Origin: Reyranella sp.
GTDB taxonomy: Bacteria; Pseudomonadota; Alphaproteobacteria; Reyranellales; Reyranellaceae
Assembly: GCA_019750135.1 (NCBI GenBank)
Contig: JAIEOV010000002.1
Coordinates: 1 to 64,000 of the forward strand
Direction: 5' to 3'
Length of the DNA stretch: 64,000 nt
Position 1 is the stretch's first letter, and the number at the start of each line of letters is the position of its first letter. Position numbers and translations under genes: made by a program. The notes under the pieces were generated by a model, which did no database searches, had not been told where the DNA came from, and saw only the letters and a list, made by a program, of their open reading frames with translations. This document shows positions 41,296 to 49,385 of this stretch, piece after piece.

Positions 41296-41311
<16 letters not shown>
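41264..41311. repeat. 16-base direct repeat, 32 bases apart
   Basis: TCACGTGCTGCGGCGT occurs at 41264-41279 and again at 41296-41311. The second copy overlaps the 3' end of the DUF433 gene and abuts its tetranucleotide tract. The pair looks like a small duplication and may have been involved in the gene's altered end. Confidence 0.85.
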
Positions 41312-41514
<203 letters not shown>

Positions 41515-41700
41515 GGCTCGAATTTAAGAGGTAGTTCGATTGAGGAACAGCTGACGGCACGCTAGCGCCATCCACGATTAGTGGTGCCAGCAGGGTTCAT
41601 CGATACCATCGATTGTATGCCGAGAGGCTTCTACGGCACGAAAAAATTCAACGACGACTGCATCGCTGACTCTCGTTGACTCCTCGCTGTGAGAGGGTTA

Positions 41701-41715
41701 GAACAAAACAAGAAC
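41701..41715. promoter_or_regulatory. LexA (SOS) box, GAAC-N7-GAAC
   Basis: GAAC at 41701-41704 and again at 41712-41715, with seven bases between, is an exact match to the alphaproteobacterial LexA site (GTTC-N7-GTTC on the other strand). It lies 44 bases before the imuA start codon in AT-rich DNA, and 186 bases from the DUF433 start. SOS control of the imuA-imuB-vapBC-dnaE2 operon follows directly; effect on DUF433 is possible. Confidence 0.88.
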
Positions 41716-41758
41716 AATTAATCCCCACCGCGTTTCCATCAGCCTGTTCGAGGGGGCG

Positions 41759-42595
41759 ATGCCCGTCATTTCCCCGAATGCCTTTGCTCCCTCTGCCGCC
41801 AACGATGCTGCAGCTCCGGTCGCAGCGGATTTGCGCGAGAAGGTCCGCCGCCTGGAGCGAGCACACAGCGCCGAGCGCGCCGGCCAGCAGGCCGTGCCGC
41901 TGGGCGTGTCGGCGATCGACGCTCTCCTGCCCAGCAACGGTCTGCTGACCGGCGCCCTGCACGAAGTCGAAGCGGGGCCCGCGCCGTCCGGCCGCGTCGC
42001 CTCGCACGACGGCGCCGCGCTGGGCTTCGCCGCTCATCTTCTCGGCCGCTTCGGCACGCTCAGGCCCAACGGCACCCTGCTGTGGTGCCGCCGCCCCCTC
42101 GGCGCTTCCGATGCACCGCCCTATGCCGCCACGCTGGCCGCCTGGTTCGATCCGGCGCGGCTGCTGATGGTCACGGTGCGACGCGACGAGGATCTGTTCT
42201 GGGCCATGGAAGAAGGCCTGCGCTGCCCCGGCATGGCGGCCGTGCTGGGCGAGACGCGCGCGACCGATCTCACGGCCGGCCGCCGCCTGTCGCTCGCCGC
42301 CGAGAAGAGCGGCGTGCCCGCCCTGCTGCTGCGCGGCCAGCCCGCACCGCCGCAAAGCGTGTGCACGACGCGCTGGCGCGTCGCCTCGGCCAACACGCAT
42401 TCGACGCCCGGCCTCAACGACGTCGGCGCACCGCGCTGGCGCACCGAGCTCAGACGCAACCGTTTCGGCGCCCCCTCTGCCGCTGAAACACCCACCTGGC
42501 TTCTGGAGTGGAACGATGAAGCGCATTGTCTCTCTGTGGTTCCCCAAGCTTTCCACGGATCGACTCGCGAGAGCGACGCCCGATTGGTCGGCTAG
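41759..42595 (+). CDS. imuA: ImuA, SOS mutagenesis RecA-like protein
   Basis: A 278-residue ImuA-family protein, the RecA/SulA-like partner of ImuB and DnaE2 in damage-induced mutagenesis. Family features are LREKVRRLERAHSA, the VPLGVSAIDALLPSNGLLTGALHEVE segment that mimics the RecA start, LLWCRRPLGASD near the middle and WLLEWNDEAHCL near the end. The ATG at 41759 follows AGGGGGCG, downstream of a LexA box. It overlaps imuB by 80 bases, an unusually long overlap. Confidence 0.92.
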   Translation: MPVISPNAFAPSAANDAAAPVAADLREKVRRLERAHSAERAGQQAVPLGVSAIDALLPSNGLLTGALHEVEAGPAPSGRVASHDGAALGFAAHLLGRFGTLRPNGTLLWCRRPLGASDAPPYAATLAAWFDPARLLMVTVRRDEDLFWAMEEGLRCPGMAAVLGETRATDLTAGRRLSLAAEKSGVPALLLRGQPAPPQSVCTTRWRVASANTHSTPGLNDVGAPRWRTELRRNRFGAPSAAETPTWLLEWNDEAHCLSVVPQAFHGSTRESDARLVG

Positions 42596-44249
42596 CCCCC
42601 CTACGCTGCAGAGCAGCTTCGGAGGGCCTAAATCAGGAAGGGAATCCAGGTCCTCCGTAGCTCCGCAGGAGCGATGGAGGACTAGAGCGGCCGCCACCGT
42701 CGTCTGGCTGGAAGGCTGCCCGCGCCTGATCGCGGTCAACCCGCATGCCCGCACCGCCGGCCTGCGCCCGCACATGCGGCTCGCCGATTCGCGCGCGCTT
42801 GTGCCCGACCTGGTCACGACGCCGGGCGAGCCGCAGGCCGACCAACGCCTGATCGAGACCATCGCCAACTGGTGCGACCGCTACACGCCGTGGGTGGCGA
42901 TCGATCCGCTGGGCGGCGCCCTCGCCGAGGAAGGCGTGGAAGCCTGCAGCACCGGCGGCTTCGGCGGCGATGCCGGCTTGCTGCTCGACATCACCGGCTG
43001 CACTCATCTCTTCGGCCAGGGCGAGGCGGGCGAGCGCGCGCTGCTGGCCGATCTCACCGAACGCCTGGCGCGCCACGACCTCACCTGCCGCGCGGCGATG
43101 GCCGATACCGCGGGCGCGGCCTGGGCGCTGGCTCGCTTCGCCGAACGCCAGGCCGATCTTTACTGCCCGTCACGCGGCCATCGCGAAGCGCTTGCCAAAC
43201 TGCCGGTCGAAGGCCTGCGGCTCGACACGCCGATCGTGGAAACCTTCCTGAAGCTCGGTCTGCGCCGTATCGGCGATCTCTATCCTCTGCCGCGCGCTCC
43301 GTTGGCGCGACGCTTCGGCGACCAGCCGCTGACGCGTCTCGACCAGGCGCTGGGCACCATCATCGAGCCCATCGAGCCGCGCCGCACGCCGCCTGCCTTC
43401 CGCACGCGGCTCGCCTTCGTCGAGCCGATCGGCCGGCCCGAGGACATCGCCGCCGCGACCAGCCGCCTGCTGGCCGCCCTCTGCCGGCAGTTCGAGCAGG
43501 CGGGCGTCGGCGCCCGCAAGCTCGAGATCGCGCTCTATCGTGTCGACGGCTCGGTCGATCGCACGTCGATCGGCACCAGCCGGCCCAATCGCGACAATCC
43601 CCGGCTGATGAAGCTGTTCGAGGAGAAGCTGGGCGAGCTCGATCCCGGCTTCGGCGTCGAGCTGATGATTCTCGCCGCCCCCGAGGTCGAGTCCTGGAGT
43701 GGCACGCAGGACGCGCTGCCCGATTCGGGCGCGATCGCCGCTTCCCTGGGCGAGGACGGCACGATCGATCTCGCCGACCGCCTGGCCTTGCGCCTGGGCG
43801 CGCAGAACGTCGTGCGCCTGCTGCCGCGCGACAGCCATCTGCCCGAGCGCGTGCAGACGGCCGGCGCCGTGGCCGAGCCCGCCGCCGCCGGCGCCTGGCA
43901 GCGCGTGGCCGGGATGAAGGGCGCACGGCCGACCCGGCTGCTGCAGCGGCCCGAGCCGGTCGACGTCATGGCCCACGTACCCGACGATCCGCCCTCGGTC
44001 TTCCACTGGCGCCAGCATGCCCATCGCATCGTGCGCGCCGAGGGACCCGAGCGTGTGGCCGACGAATGGTGGCGGCCGCGTCCCGACGGCAGCCGACCAC
44101 CCGCCAACATCGTGCCGCCCTACCGCGACTACTATCGCGTCGAGGACGACGATGGCGGCCGCTTCTGGCTGTTCCGCGACGGGGCCTACCGGATGGCGGC
44201 CAATGGCCGGCAGACGGCCCGCTGGTTTCTCCATGGATTCTGCGCATGA
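42516..44249 (+). CDS. imuB: ImuB, Y-family polymerase-like subunit of the SOS mutasome
   Basis: A 577-residue ImuB. It keeps the Y-family fold but not the catalytic acids; in the mutasome it acts as the hub linking DnaE2 to the sliding clamp. The N-terminus MKRIVSLWFPKLSTDRL, the GDAGLLLDITGCTHLFGQGEAG palm segment and the LRRIGDLYPLPRAPLARRFGD helix-hairpin-helix region are clear. Between residues about 27 and 56 lies a stretch absent from other members (LQSSFGGPKSGRE... RWRTRAA), encoded by a pair of inverted palindromes. The stop overlaps the antitoxin start codon (ATGA). Confidence 0.9.
   Translation: MKRIVSLWFPKLSTDRLARATPDWSASPPTLQSSFGGPKSGRESRSSVAPQERWRTRAAATVVWLEGCPRLIAVNPHARTAGLRPHMRLADSRALVPDLVTTPGEPQADQRLIETIANWCDRYTPWVAIDPLGGALAEEGVEACSTGGFGGDAGLLLDITGCTHLFGQGEAGERALLADLTERLARHDLTCRAAMADTAGAAWALARFAERQADLYCPSRGHREALAKLPVEGLRLDTPIVETFLKLGLRRIGDLYPLPRAPLARRFGDQPLTRLDQALGTIIEPIEPRRTPPAFRTRLAFVEPIGRPEDIAAATSRLLAALCRQFEQAGVGARKLEIALYRVDGSVDRTSIGTSRPNRDNPRLMKLFEEKLGELDPGFGVELMILAAPEVESWSGTQDALPDSGAIAASLGEDGTIDLADRLALRLGAQNVVRLLPRDSHLPERVQTAGAVAEPAAAGAWQRVAGMKGARPTRLLQRPEPVDVMAHVPDDPPSVFHWRQHAHRIVRAEGPERVADEWWRPRPDGSRPPANIVPPYRDYYRVEDDDGGRFWLFRDGAYRMAANGRQTARWFLHGFCA
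42594..42682. repeat. REPIN-like inverted pair of palindromes inside imuB
   Basis: Two 33-base palindromes face each other: 42594-42626 and 42650-42682, separated by 23 bases. The second folds as GTCCTCC-gta-GCTCC-gca-GGAGC-gat-GGAGGAC. The reverse complement of the first matches the second at 24 of 33 positions. The unit lies within the imuB frame and preserves it. This is the layout of REPIN/palindromic mobile elements, here translated. Confidence 0.72.
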
Positions 44250-44488
44250 AAAAGAACACGCTCACCATCCGCGGGCTCGACGACAAGGTCGTCGAAAACC
44301 TGAAGGCGCGCGCCCGCACGCGCCGTCACTCCCTCGAAGCCGAGCTGCGCGCGATCCTGAGCCAGGCAGCGCGCCAGCCGTTGGTCCTCGATCCGTTGGC
44401 CGAGGCCGACCGCATCGCTGCCATGACGCCGCTCGTCCGGCCGATGGCCGAGGAGCGGCCGCTGATGTGCGCAGGAGGCGAGCCATGA
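44246..44488 (+). CDS. FitA/VapB-like ribbon-helix-helix antitoxin
   Basis: An 80-residue antitoxin. The ribbon-helix-helix domain is KKNTLTIRGLDDKVVENLKARARTRRHSLEAELRAILSQAA, the FitA/VapB pattern, followed by a toxin-binding tail (PLAEADRIAAMTPLVRPMAEERP). Its ATG overlaps the imuB stop and its stop overlaps the toxin start, both as ATGA. It therefore sits as the third gene of the SOS mutasome operon. Besides blocking the toxin it may bind DNA near the operon promoter. Confidence 0.87.
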   Translation: MKKNTLTIRGLDDKVVENLKARARTRRHSLEAELRAILSQAARQPLVLDPLAEADRIAAMTPLVRPMAEERPLMCAGGEP

Positions 44489-44925
44489 TCGTGGTGATCG
44501 ATCCCGGCGTCGCCATCAAATGGTTCGTCGAGGAGCCGCTGCGGCCGCAGGCGCGCTCGCTGCTGGTGCATGGCCACGAGGTGATGGCGCCCGACATCCT
44601 GATCGCGGACGTGGCCGACCTCGCCTGGAAGAAGACCGTCGCCGGCGAAATCTCATCCGACCAGGCCGAGCCCATCGTGCGCAACATCGGCCTGCCCGCC
44701 TTCATCTCGGCCTTCGTCGAATCGACCCGCCTGCGCAACCGCGCGCTGTCGCTTGCCCTGCAGTGCGGCCGTCCGGTGCACGACTGCTTCTATGCCGCCT
44801 GCGCCGAGGCAGTGGGCGCGCCGCTGGTCAGCAGCGACGAAACCTTCCTGCAGGCGCTCAAGCTCGAGGGCATCGCCCTGCGCGGCGTGCCGCTGACGCG
44901 CATCCATGAGCTCGCCGACGCGTGA
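44485..44925 (+). CDS. VapC-like PIN-domain ribonuclease toxin
   Basis: A 146-residue PIN-domain protein. Acidic active-site residues are Asp6 (VVIDPGVAIKWF), Asp42 (ILIADVADLAW, where most VapC have Glu), Asp100 (PVHDCFYAACAEA) and Asp118 (LVSSDETF). VapC toxins cleave tRNA or rRNA and halt translation. It starts by ATGA overlap with the antitoxin and ends three bases before the dnaE2 start codon, so toxin, antitoxin and error-prone polymerase should be made from one SOS-induced mRNA. Confidence 0.88.
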   Translation: MIVVIDPGVAIKWFVEEPLRPQARSLLVHGHEVMAPDILIADVADLAWKKTVAGEISSDQAEPIVRNIGLPAFISAFVESTRLRNRALSLALQCGRPVHDCFYAACAEAVGAPLVSSDETFLQALKLEGIALRGVPLTRIHELADA

Positions 44926-44928
44926 ACC

Positions 44929-47900
44929 ATGTATGCCGAGCTACAGGTCACGACCAACTACAGCTTTCTGCGCAGCGGCTCGCATCCCGGTGAGCTGGTG
45001 CTGCAGGCGGCAGCGCTCGGCCATACCGCCATCGGCATCACCGACCGCAACACGCTGGCCGGCGTGGTGCGGGCCTATGCGGCGCTCAAGGAGTATTACG
45101 AGGATCATCCGACGCCGCCGGAGCAGCAGACCAGGCTTCTGGTCGGCTGCCGTATCGAGACGCACGACGGCTATTCCCTGCTCGCCTATCCCACCGACCT
45201 CAACGCTTACAAGCGCCTGTCTCGCCTGCTGACGGTCGGCAACCGCCGCGCCGCCAAGGGCCAGTGCGATCTCACCTTCGACGATCTTTCAGCCCACGCT
45301 GAAGGGATTTTGGCCATCGTCCTGCCGCCGCGCCGGCCCGATGATCCGGCCTTCCGCGAACGGCTACGCGCGCTCGCCCGCCTGTTCGGAGACCGCTGCT
45401 ACCTCGCCGGCACCGCGCTGTTCCGCGGCGACGATGCCAAGCGGTTGGCCACGCTCGACAATCTCGCCGCCGAGATGGGCGTAGGCCTGGTGGCGACCAA
45501 CGACGTGCACTACCACGAGTCCAAGCGGCGGGCGCTGCAAGACGTGGTGACAGCCATTCGGCTCGGCTGCACCGTCGACGCGCTGGGCTTCCGCCGCTTC
45601 GCCAGCGCCGAACGGCATCTCAAGGATCCCGTGGAGATGGCGCGCCTGTTCCGTCGCCATCCGCGCGCCATCGAACGCACCCAGGAGATCGTGAACCGCT
45701 GCAGCTTCACGCTCGACCAGCTCACCTACCAGTATCCCGTGATGTACGAGGGCGGCGAGACGCCGATGGACAAGCTCATGCGGCTCACCTGGGAAGGTGC
45801 GGCCCGCCGCTATCCCGAGAGCGTCCCTGAGAAGGTCGCCACCACGATCCGGCACGAATTCGAGCTCATCCGAAACAAGGAAATCGCACCCTACTTCCTG
45901 ACGGTGCACGAGATCGTCATGCAGGCGCGCAAGATGGGCATCCTTTGTCAGGGTCGCGGCTCGGCCGCCAATTCCGCCGTCTGCTATTGCCTGGGAGTCA
46001 CCTCGGTCGATCCGGATAAGGCCGACGTCCTGTTCGAGCGCTTCCTGTCCAACGAGCGCAACGAGCCACCCGACATCGACGTCGACTTCGAGCACGAGCG
46101 GCGCGAGGAGATCATCCAGTGGATCTACAACGAGAAAGGCCGATCGCGCGCCGCCCTTGCCGCCACGGTGATCTCCTACAGGAGTCGCAGCGCCATCCGT
46201 GAGGTCGGCAAGGCGCTCGGCCTGTCGCCCGACACGGTGGGCGCCATGGCCGACACGGTATGGGGCATCGGCTCGGGCGGCGTCGATGTCGGCCATGTCC
46301 GTGAAGCCGGTCTCGATCCCACCGATGCCCGGCTGATGCTGGCATTGGAACTGTCGGCCGTGCTGTGCGGCTTCCCGCGCCACCTCTCGCAGCATGTCGG
46401 CGGTTTCGTGCTCACCGAGGACCGCCTCGACGAGCTGATCCCCATCCAGAACGCGGCCATGGACGACCGCACCGTCATCGAGTGGGACAAGGACGATCTC
46501 GACGCCCTCAAGATCTACAAGGTCGACGTGCTGGGCCTCGGCATGCTGACCTGCCTGCGCAAGAGCTTCGACCTGATCGAGAAGCACTATGGCGAGCGAA
46601 AGACGCTCGGCATGACGGACGAGGATCCTGCCATTTACGAAATGCTGGGCCGGGCCGATTCGGTCGGCGTGTTCCAGGTCGAAAGCCGGGCGCAGATGTC
46701 GATGCTGCCGCGCCTGAAACCCAAGAAGTACTACGACCTCGTCGTCGAGGTGGCGATCGTGCGGCCCGGGCCCATCCAGGGCGGCATGGTCCATCCTTAC
46801 CTGAAGAATCGCGCGGCGCCCGAGAAGGTCACCTATCCCAAGCCGGAGCTTAAAAAAATCCTCAAGCGCACGTTGGGCGTGCCGCTGTTCCAGGAACAGG
46901 CGATGCAGATCGCCATCGACTGCGCGGGCTTCAAGCCGGAGAAAGCCGACAAGCTGCGGCGCGCCATGGCGACGTTCCGCCGGGCCGGCACGATCCACAA
47001 GCTCAAGCGGGATTTCATCGAAGGCATGGTCGGCAACGGCTACGAACGCGAGTTCGCCGAACGCTGCTTCAAGCAGATCGAAGGCTTCGGCGAGTACGGC
47101 TTCCCCGAAAGCCACGCCGCGAGCTTCGCCATCCTGGTCTACGACTCCTCGTGGGTGAAGCATTACTACCCCGAGGTCTTCGCTGCCGCCCTGCTCAACT
47201 CCCAGCCCATGGGCTTCTATGCCCCGGCCCAGCTCGTGCGCGACGCGAAGGAGCATGGCGTCGAGGTGCGGCCGCCCGACGTCAATGCCAGCGACTGGGA
47301 CTGCACGCTCGAGCCCAGCCAGAACAATCGTTGTGCCTTGCGACTCGGCTTGCGCCAGGTCACGGGCCTGGCCGAAGACGACGTCAAGCGCATGGTCGAG
47401 CGCCGCACCGAGCGCTATCGCGATCCAGCCGACCTGTGGCGGCGCTCCGGCCTCAACAAGCGGCAGATCGTGGCGCTGGCCCGCGCCGATGCCTTCGCCT
47501 CGCTCGGCCTGTCGCGCCGCGACGTGCTGTGGGCGGTGCGCGGCTTCTCCGACGCCAAGCTGCCGTTGCTCGACGGTCCGGGCAAACTGCGCGATCTCGA
47601 ACCCAAGGTCTCCCTGCCCTCCCTGACCCTGGGCGAACAGGTGGTGGACGACTACGGCGCGTTCTCGATGTCGCTGCGCTGCCATCCGCTGGCATTGTTG
47701 CGCCCGCGTCTCGCAAACCGCGGCGTGTCACCGACCGAGGTGCTGAAGACCTCCAGGAACGAGGACGAATTCATCCTGGCCGGCCTGGTCCTGGTGCGCC
47801 AACGGCCGGGCACCGCCTCGGGCGTGGTGTTCGTCACCATCGAGGACGAGCACGGCATCGCCAACCTCGTGGTCTGGCCCAAGGTCTTCGAGGCCCATCG

Positions 47901-48228
47901 CCGCATCGTCATGGGCTCGCGCCTCTTGGGTGTGCGCGGCCACGTGCAGCGCGAAGGGCTGGTGATCCATCTTGTCGCCGAGGAGCTGTGGGACTGGTCG
48001 GCCGAGCTCGATTCCATTTCCGAGATCGACGAGGACTTCCGCCTGACCCACGGCCGCGGCGACCAGGTGCGCACCGACCGCCCCGACCCGCGCGCCCATC
48101 TACCGGTCCCCGAGGCCAACGCCACGCGTCATCGCGTCAAGAAGCCTCCGCCGGCGAAAGGCTACGACCGCAGCCGCATTCATCTCGACCGCCCCAAGAT
48201 CAAGATCGCCTCACGGGATTTCCACTGA
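44929..48228 (+). CDS. dnaE2: DnaE2 error-prone DNA polymerase III alpha subunit (ImuC)
   Basis: A 1099-residue C-family polymerase, the catalytic subunit of the SOS mutasome. The N-terminal PHP domain begins YAELQVTTNYSFLRSGSHPGEL with GITDRNTLAG. The palm has GRGSAANSAVCYCLG and the catalytic pair in PPDIDVDFEHERREE near residue 380; helix-hairpin-helix and OB domains follow (FILAGLVLVRQRPGTASGVVFVTIED). Length and the missing tau-binding tail fit DnaE2 rather than DnaE1. The ATG at 44929 is the first codon after the toxin gene. Its stop shares bases with the next start (TGATG). Confidence 0.95.
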   Translation: MYAELQVTTNYSFLRSGSHPGELVLQAAALGHTAIGITDRNTLAGVVRAYAALKEYYEDHPTPPEQQTRLLVGCRIETHDGYSLLAYPTDLNAYKRLSRLLTVGNRRAAKGQCDLTFDDLSAHAEGILAIVLPPRRPDDPAFRERLRALARLFGDRCYLAGTALFRGDDAKRLATLDNLAAEMGVGLVATNDVHYHESKRRALQDVVTAIRLGCTVDALGFRRFASAERHLKDPVEMARLFRRHPRAIERTQEIVNRCSFTLDQLTYQYPVMYEGGETPMDKLMRLTWEGAARRYPESVPEKVATTIRHEFELIRNKEIAPYFLTVHEIVMQARKMGILCQGRGSAANSAVCYCLGVTSVDPDKADVLFERFLSNERNEPPDIDVDFEHERREEIIQWIYNEKGRSRAALAATVISYRSRSAIREVGKALGLSPDTVGAMADTVWGIGSGGVDVGHVREAGLDPTDARLMLALELSAVLCGFPRHLSQHVGGFVLTEDRLDELIPIQNAAMDDRTVIEWDKDDLDALKIYKVDVLGLGMLTCLRKSFDLIEKHYGERKTLGMTDEDPAIYEMLGRADSVGVFQVESRAQMSMLPRLKPKKYYDLVVEVAIVRPGPIQGGMVHPYLKNRAAPEKVTYPKPELKKILKRTLGVPLFQEQAMQIAIDCAGFKPEKADKLRRAMATFRRAGTIHKLKRDFIEGMVGNGYEREFAERCFKQIEGFGEYGFPESHAASFAILVYDSSWVKHYYPEVFAAALLNSQPMGFYAPAQLVRDAKEHGVEVRPPDVNASDWDCTLEPSQNNRCALRLGLRQVTGLAEDDVKRMVERRTERYRDPADLWRRSGLNKRQIVALARADAFASLGLSRRDVLWAVRGFSDAKLPLLDGPGKLRDLEPKVSLPSLTLGEQVVDDYGAFSMSLRCHPLALLRPRLANRGVSPTEVLKTSRNEDEFILAGLVLVRQRPGTASGVVFVTIEDEHGIANLVVWPKVFEAHRRIVMGSRLLGVRGHVQREGLVIHLVAEELWDWSAELDSISEIDEDFRLTHGRGDQVRTDRPDPRAHLPVPEANATRHRVKKPPPAKGYDRSRIHLDRPKIKIASRDFH

Positions 48229-49139: not shown

Positions 49140-49385
49140 TTATTTGCGGGAACGCCTTTTCTTCACGTTCTCGCCCAGAACCGGGCGCAGGAGGTCTACG
49201 CCGCGACGCACTCGTACCGAGCCTGGATGAGTACCGAACAAAGACTGCGTACGCTCGTTTTCTACAAGCAGTCGACGCACGGCAATTGCGACCACATTGG
49301 TGGTATCGCCGCCTGTGATCTTGTCAGCAGCCTTTTCGATGAGAGCCACGACATCGGGGCGTCTGATTCTGACGACACTAGCCAT
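49140..49385 (-). CDS. Orphan VapB-like antitoxin
   Basis: An 81-residue protein: MASVVRIRRPDVVALIEKAADKITGGDTTNVVAIAVRRLL opens like the Rv0623/VapB family of antitoxins, and the tail LFGTHPGSVRVRRGVDLL is a toxin-binding-type end. No PIN-domain gene follows it. The ATG at 49385 follows AGGAAAG. The DNA is visibly less GC-rich than the flanking repair genes, hinting at acquisition. It lies between the luciferase-like pseudogene and the helicase gene. Confidence 0.62.
   Translation of the reverse strand: MASVVRIRRPDVVALIEKAADKITGGDTTNVVAIAVRRLLVENERTQSLFGTHPGSVRVRRGVDLLRPVLGENVKKRRSRK

Follow-up and report, generated by a model that had tools for sequence, protein, structure and literature searches.

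Reyranella is a genus of soil and water bacteria. We analyzed a stretch of 64,000 nucleotides from Reyranella sp. (assembly GCA_019750135.1, 8.46 Mb in 160 contigs; contig JAIEOV010000002.1, positions 1 to 64,000), hereafter the window, in which a VapBC-type toxin-antitoxin (TA) pair lies inside an SOS-type mutasome operon. Examination of the open reading frames (ORFs) revealed the gene order imuA-imuB-vapB-vapC-dnaE2, with all five genes on the + strand and 3' of a LexA-type SOS box. The box (GAACAAAACAAGAAC; 41701-41715, +) has the pattern GAAC-N7-GAAC, which we take to be the alphaproteobacterial LexA box, and stands 58 nt 5' of the start of imuA. The imuA gene (41759-42595) was assigned from its position, from tblastn in relatives and from an NF033429 ImuA match under the curated cut-off (E 8.1e-14). 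The imuB gene (42516-44249) encodes a Y-family-like protein of 577 aa (PF00817 IMS, E 1.8e-6; synteny), and dnaE2, also called imuC (44929-48228), encodes an error-prone DNA polymerase of 1099 aa (PRK05672, 1373 bits). Between them lie vapB (44246-44488), coding for an 80-aa homologue of FitA-like ribbon-helix-helix (RHH) antitoxins (Pfam FitA-like_RHH, PF22513, E 6.3e-14; conserved in the genus), and vapC (44485-44925), coding for a 146-aa PIN-domain protein (Pfam PIN, PF01850, E 2.2e-8, 35.2 bits, cut-off 23.6; PDB 2fe1, PAE0151, E 2.4e-6). The small gene for a DNA-binding antitoxin thus precedes and overlaps the toxin gene: ATGA overlaps were found at both imuB/vapB and vapB/vapC, and the vapC stop is 3 nt from the dnaE2 start. 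This layout, including the overlaps, the three-base spacing and the LexA box ahead of the operon, had been given in a preliminary description of the sequence, and the coordinates and the Pfam and NCBIfam matches agree with it.

To describe the catalytic centre of VapC, its four acids were placed at positions 6, 42, 100 and 118 by alignment to PAE0151 (2fe1) and canonical relatives. The window VapC carries Asp6 (44500-44502, +), Asp42 (codon GAC, 44608-44610, +), Asp100 (44782-44784, +) and Asp118 (44836-44838, +), that is D/D/D/D compared with the canonical D/E/D/D. Analysis of the main Reyranella clade of VapCs (n = 41; G017, split over two contigs, was left out) revealed that the catalytic Glu42 is absent from all 41 sequences, with Gly in 40 and Asp in one, the window. 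The active-site acids of the PIN protein had been described as intact, which does not hold at this position in the window or anywhere in its clade. The other three positions also varied: position 6 was Asp in 36 and Glu in 5, position 100 was Asp in 24, Glu in 14, Ala in 2 and Gly in 1, and position 118 was Asp in 37, Asn in 2, Glu in 1 and Gly in 1. The complete DEDD set was found in 25 of 27 VapCs that are not linked to the mutasome operon (the exceptions were L154, with Gly42, and L175, with Gly100), and in linked VapCs outside the main clade (G061, G064, G067, G103, G278, G297, G301, G378, G385 and G438). The 27 unlinked VapCs share 34 conserved columns, of which the main clade has altered 12 and kept 22. 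The altered columns include 7, 8, 42, 45, 96, 99, 116 and 117, which lie beside the catalytic acids in the sequence; the residues affected include Asn45, Thr116, Ser8 (kept in 3 of the 41) and both His96 and Tyr99 (each kept in none). The kept columns include V4, K12, W13, A23, A35, P36, W48, P97, Y103 and A105. A second set of changes was seen in the linked VapCs of G104 and G234, which share one genus code and have lost acid 3 and carry Asp in place of Glu42. In G075, acid 3 (Asp100) is lost and the others are kept.

We next analyzed the C-terminal tail of the antitoxin; canonical VapBs close with a motif of the type QTDSVxLLREDRxR. In Shigella VapBC, whose antitoxin has a different fold, Arg64 of the antitoxin tail is described as bonding toxin Glu42 and Asp98, with Arg68 as the equivalent residue in FitAB (PMC3384007). 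The tail of the window VapB (residues 63-80; 44432-44485, +) lacks the canonical [LIVA][LIVW]RxxR motif. The motif was present in all nine linked canonical pairs that have a VapB versus none of 40 main-clade VapBs. It was also absent from the VapBs of G104 and G234, matching the loss of acids in their VapCs, and it was present in the orphan VapBs of G042, G069 and G352. Among unlinked DEDD pairs with a VapB, 23 of 24 matched the tail pattern, and the one miss, L183, ends in a similar TIRADR. The association of acid and tail gave a Fisher value of 3e-9, which treats relatives as independent and is to be read as two lineages only. The RHH core, judged by eye, was conserved in 41 aligned VapBs.

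To measure constraint on the operon, the ratio of nonsynonymous to synonymous substitution (dN/dS) was calculated by the Nei-Gojobori method for 31 main-clade genomes (465 pairs, medians). These analyses revealed a dN/dS of 0.229 for vapC (median dS 0.54), 0.232 for imuA, 0.178 for imuB, 0.198 for the N-terminus of dnaE2 and 0.387 for vapB. The vapC gene is under purifying selection like imuA and, if Glu42 was lost once, all pairs of the 31 genomes diverged after that loss. The vapC genes of G104 and G234 gave a dN/dS of 0.062 at a dS of 1.27. VapC and ImuB distances were correlated (rho 0.70, 31 genomes), with 0 of 2000 permutations as high.

We extended the analysis to other genomes of the genus. 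In named genomes, 36 of the 39 loci found matched the window VapC at 73-94%, including those of R. soli NBRC 108950 and Rhodospirillales bacterium URHD0017. A VapC of at least 71% identity was present in 41 of the 61 genus genomes searched, and, within the reach of its contig, each of these 41 vapC loci adjoins imuB, dnaE2 or both. Four further genus genomes (G066-G069) contributed a linked vapC in G067 (59%) and in G068, giving 43 of 65 genomes with linked vapC; with five unreadable junctions left out (G006, G007, G027, G033 and G044), 43 of the 60 readable imuB-dnaE2 junctions carry vapBC. In the window and in every one of the 39 Reyranella loci examined that hold both genes, vapB and vapC overlap by 4 nt. 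The ATGA overlap of imuB and vapB was found in G004, G012, G014, G020, G048 and the window, and most other loci have a short gap. An insertion unique to one strain, which the preliminary description had named as a possible outcome of a search for conserved vapBC synteny, is ruled out by these junctions together with those of other families. Trees were built with FastTree; a DnaE1 single-gene tree (20 genomes) conflicted with the ImuB+DnaE2 tree on the placement of vapBC-free genomes, and in the latter the canonical G067 falls inside the vapBC-free clade. Operon exchange and weak resolution are both possible explanations for the conflict. One genome, G016 (L067), has a second, divergent imuA-imuB-dnaE2 operon without vapBC (DnaE2 56% identical). 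GC-rich repeats were seen by eye at four junctions without vapBC or with remnants of it (L090 600-900, L097 4260-4500, L061 4390-4470 and L066 4430-4500), of the CCACTCCAGTGGCGC type in three and of the CTTCGAGACGCTTCGCTGCG type in L090.

Outside the genus, vapBC precedes dnaE2 in 2 of 10 genomes of the same family (G061 and G064, two genera) and in G075, the sole genome examined from another family of the order. At the level of the class, 174 of 385 genomes carry dnaE2 at E 1e-150, and a linked VapC was found outside the family of Reyranella in at least nine genomes with eight family codes (G103, G104, G234, G278, G297, G301, G378, G385 and G438), a lower bound because scoring was limited to ten candidates in each genome. 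All 12 best class-level matches to the A3 profile sit at dnaE2, a result that is partly built in, since the profile itself includes most of these 12 or a close relative of them. Occurrence outside Alphaproteobacteria was rejected on a search of the phylum at a threshold of E 1e-30: 13 of 398 genomes gave 15 matches between them, and only those of G000 and G103 sit at dnaE2. In a quick tree of 21 linked VapCs (of 53) and 27 unlinked VapCs, the latter being returns of profile and paralogue searches and not a random sample, 2 changes of linkage were needed. Constraining the linked VapCs to one clade gave a log-likelihood 12.3 higher (approximately unbiased test, p-AU 0.836); a single origin is compatible with this test, though not demonstrated by it. 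Three of the more distant loci depart from the common layout. In G352, vapB is followed by an ORF that we take to be REP-transposase-like, and there is no vapC match. In G385 (L168 994-1413), a canonical VapC gene directly overlaps imuB, vapB is missing from the junction, and the VapB profile matched nothing anywhere in this 86%-complete genome; it is possible that this VapC is a solo toxin or that its VapB lies on a missing contig. In G103 (L146 4990-5819; Rhodospirillaceae ECT2AJA-110-B), the linked VapC carries ~140 additional aa of unknown sequence, and, by eye, there is another RHH-like ORF 5' of vapB.

Direct adjacency of imuB and dnaE2 had been described as the rule in most genomes. We examined 40 hand-picked class junctions outside the family, G104 having been chosen with its vapC known; imuB lay within 2.4 kb in 37 of them, and the gap was 55 nt or less in 25 of the 37. 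The remaining 12 hold other sequence, including the vapBC of G104, so the rule is only moderately true in Alphaproteobacteria. Because the junction often holds other sequence, an insert alone is unremarkable, and it is the recurrence of one VapBC lineage that is remarkable. No relatives were found in two scans of viral_contigs, and a role in anti-phage defence was rejected, there being no PADLOC match at E 0.01.

The SOS-type box was examined across the same operons. GAAC-N7-GAAC was found 44-67 nt 5' of imuA in each of the 41 Reyranella loci where the start of imuA could be read; none was found between imuB and dnaE2 in those loci or in the window. The bare pattern occurs three times across the 64 kb of the window, so its constant position is what counts. 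Among 11 further loci the box lay 5' of imuA in 9; in L212, which has no imuA match, it precedes imuB, and in L195 it lies inside the estimated imuA start.

The linkage, the SOS-type box, the joint degeneration of toxin and antitoxin and the continued constraint are each evident at the level of sequence. The two matched losses, combined with continued constraint, suggest that the pair no longer kills but still acts in an SOS-type operon. We therefore favour, with evenly balanced confidence, a reading in which a disarmed RHH-PIN pair has been kept as a non-toxic, SOS-induced accessory of the mutasome. An alphaproteobacterial VapBC of the FitAB type would have entered the imuB-dnaE2 junction long ago and then travelled with the mutasome operon. 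In an ancestor of most Reyranella copies, the PIN toxin would have been stripped of its catalytic centre, with Glu42 becoming Gly and conserved residues nearby also replaced, and presumably of RNase activity with it; the antitoxin's C-terminal Arg tail, by which that centre would be plugged, would have gone as well. Purifying selection would have retained the RHH domain and the PIN fold, as well as the place in the operon and the overlap of vapB with vapC. A non-toxic RHH-PIN complex would then be made alongside ImuA, ImuB and DnaE2 in the SOS response, probably from a shared transcript, and may serve as a pseudo-nuclease accessory, binding either nucleic acid or a partner within the mutasome, by analogy with the dead polymerase ImuB.

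Among the closest known systems, FitAB-type VapBC (N. gonorrhoeae FitAB; PDB 2bsq, 2h1o) likewise consists of a FitA-like RHH antitoxin gene (PF22513) followed by an overlapping PIN gene; the Reyranella pair differs in having no Glu42, altered residues beside the acids and no antitoxin Arg tail, and in sitting in an SOS polymerase operon. ImuB is described as a catalytically dead polymerase that is an essential part of the mutasome (PMC3901139, PMC6511836), and is alike in having lost its catalytic acids while being kept in the same system. Unlike ImuB, a standard mutasome part, VapBC is an optional addition in some alphaproteobacteria. The suspicion that some PIN proteins have been inactivated and that solo toxins or antitoxins have been exapted was voiced in an authors' reply to a reviewer (PMC2701414); in contrast to such solo parts, the two Reyranella genes have stayed side by side in one operon, and both partners show matched losses. 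No paper with imuB, dnaE2 and vapC together was found in the open-licence literature searched, the titles and abstract openings of the related papers listed describe no such pair, and the available text of PMC3901139 and PMC6511836 contains no word starting with 'toxin'.

A more specific proposal is that VapC, recruited from a TA pair, has joined the mutasome as a pseudo-nuclease subunit and so stands next to ImuB as its second dead enzyme, and that DnaE2-dependent mutagenesis is guided or restrained by the RHH-PIN complex, both in Reyranella and, as an independent case, in the G104/G234 lineage; we put this forward only tentatively. If true, the operon would offer a worked case of TA domestication, in which both partners lost their killing and blocking parts in step under selection in a core stress operon, and would suggest two unrecognized partners in some mutasomes. 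Natural before and after versions are available in G067 and R. soli. R. soli and R. aquatilis can be cultured, and the role of chromosomal TA pairs tied to SOS mutagenesis would become directly testable in growable environmental bacteria.

Several observations weigh against a domesticated accessory. The pair is dispensable, with 14 of the 60 readable Reyranella junctions free of vapBC, vapB without an intact vapC in G042 and G069 and a vapB relic, judged by eye, in G050. The case for joint loss of acid and tail comes from two lineages; G075 keeps the tail despite its lost Asp100, and L154 and L175 indicate that acid loss is not special to linked copies. Constraint on vapB is the weakest of the five operon genes. 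Partnership with ImuA, ImuB or DnaE2 is a step that we infer. Structural prediction adds little: the AlphaFold model of VapC from a 36-row genus alignment was weak (predicted local distance difference test, pLDDT, 67; predicted TM-score, pTM, 0.63) and yields no geometry, the best Foldseek matches were PIN/VapC proteins, all of them weak, with 2fe1 first (E 5e-3, TM 0.43-0.47), and the best phmmer match was likewise a weak one to a PIN protein; with such scores no geometric claim is made. Finally, acidic residues at 6, 42 or 45, 100 and 118 persist in 36 of the 41 main-clade VapCs, making a modified metal site conceivable.

This last point leads to the main rival, in which VapC would still be a nuclease whose second carboxylate has shifted along the helix by a single turn, from Glu42 to Glu/Asp45. 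Its specificity would have altered, the antitoxin would have changed to match, and the operon would supply an SOS-induced RNase with a new target. Position 45 (Asp in the window; 44617-44619, +) is Glu or Asp in 40 of the 41 main-clade VapCs versus Asn in 33 of 35 canonical VapCs, and this, the acids retained in the 36 sequences and the purifying selection on vapC would all fit. However, Asp6 and Asp100 interchange with Glu (in 5 and 14 of the 41), Asp100 and Asp118 each have non-acidic replacements in 3 of the 41, and Ser8, His96 and Tyr99, all conserved in unlinked VapCs, are kept in 3, none and none, respectively. On balance we regard a relocated acid as doubtful.

The complex might alternatively be a DNA-binding autoregulator only, tuning transcription of the mutasome operon. 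The conserved RHH core would suit such a role, and FitAB is described as binding its own operator as a hetero-octamer (PMC3384007). However, a simple scan of 41500-45100 for the sigma-70 consensus found no sigma-70-like promoter, no extra synonymous constraint was detected at the 3' end of imuB, and the LexA-type box was the only conserved site found. Nothing resembling an internal promoter or operator near vapB was found in these analyses, of which the promoter scan covered the sigma-70 consensus, and we consider regulation as the sole function improbable.

The preliminary description had proposed that the pair is an ordinary VapBC module, acting either as a growth-halting RNase that couples the SOS response to arrest or as an addiction lock on the mutasome. 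That the pair is built into the operon behind a LexA-type box was borne out. Neither proposed function would work without an active nuclease and an antitoxin tail that fits it, so the loss of Glu42 in 41 of 41 VapCs and of the tail in 40 of 40 VapBs counts against them in the window clade; the window itself has Asp42 and no tail motif. Canonical acids and tail do occur together in the linked pairs of G061, G064, G067, G103, G278, G297, G301, G378 and G438, and the orphan antitoxins of G042, G069 and G352 look like toxin loss from working pairs. A precedent exists in E. coli dinB-yafN-yafO, a TA pair in an error-prone polymerase operon for which induction from the dinB promoter, located upstream, is described after DNA damage (PMC2814082); YafO, unlike VapC, is RelE-homologous, lies 3' of dinB and has its own autoregulated promoter. 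Where linked relatives retain both the acids and the tail (G061, G064, G067 and members of the class), a toxin reading appears reasonable, and for the window clade we rate it as quite improbable. Least probable, indeed very unlikely, is a decaying relic, disarmed and functionless and kept for now since its deletion would disturb coupled translation into dnaE2: the pair is absent, reduced or decayed in 17 of the 60 readable junctions and vapB has the highest dN/dS in the operon (0.387), but dN/dS disfavours neutrality, with constraint on vapC similar to that on imuA (median dS 0.54), and vapC likewise constrained in G104/G234 (dS 1.27).

Other features of the window were observed in and around the operon. 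The imuB gene contains an in-frame palindrome-rich stretch (42590-42700) and is ~90 bp longer than its match in G004 (L055); the stretch may be a small repeat element inside the coding gene. Upstream of the SOS box, a small ORF (41296-41514, -), presumably DUF433-like as judged by eye, has a C-terminus that runs into a CLPACLPACLP repeat. A second small ORF, 3' of the operon (49140-49385, -), resembles what we take, also by eye, to be another antitoxin-type protein.

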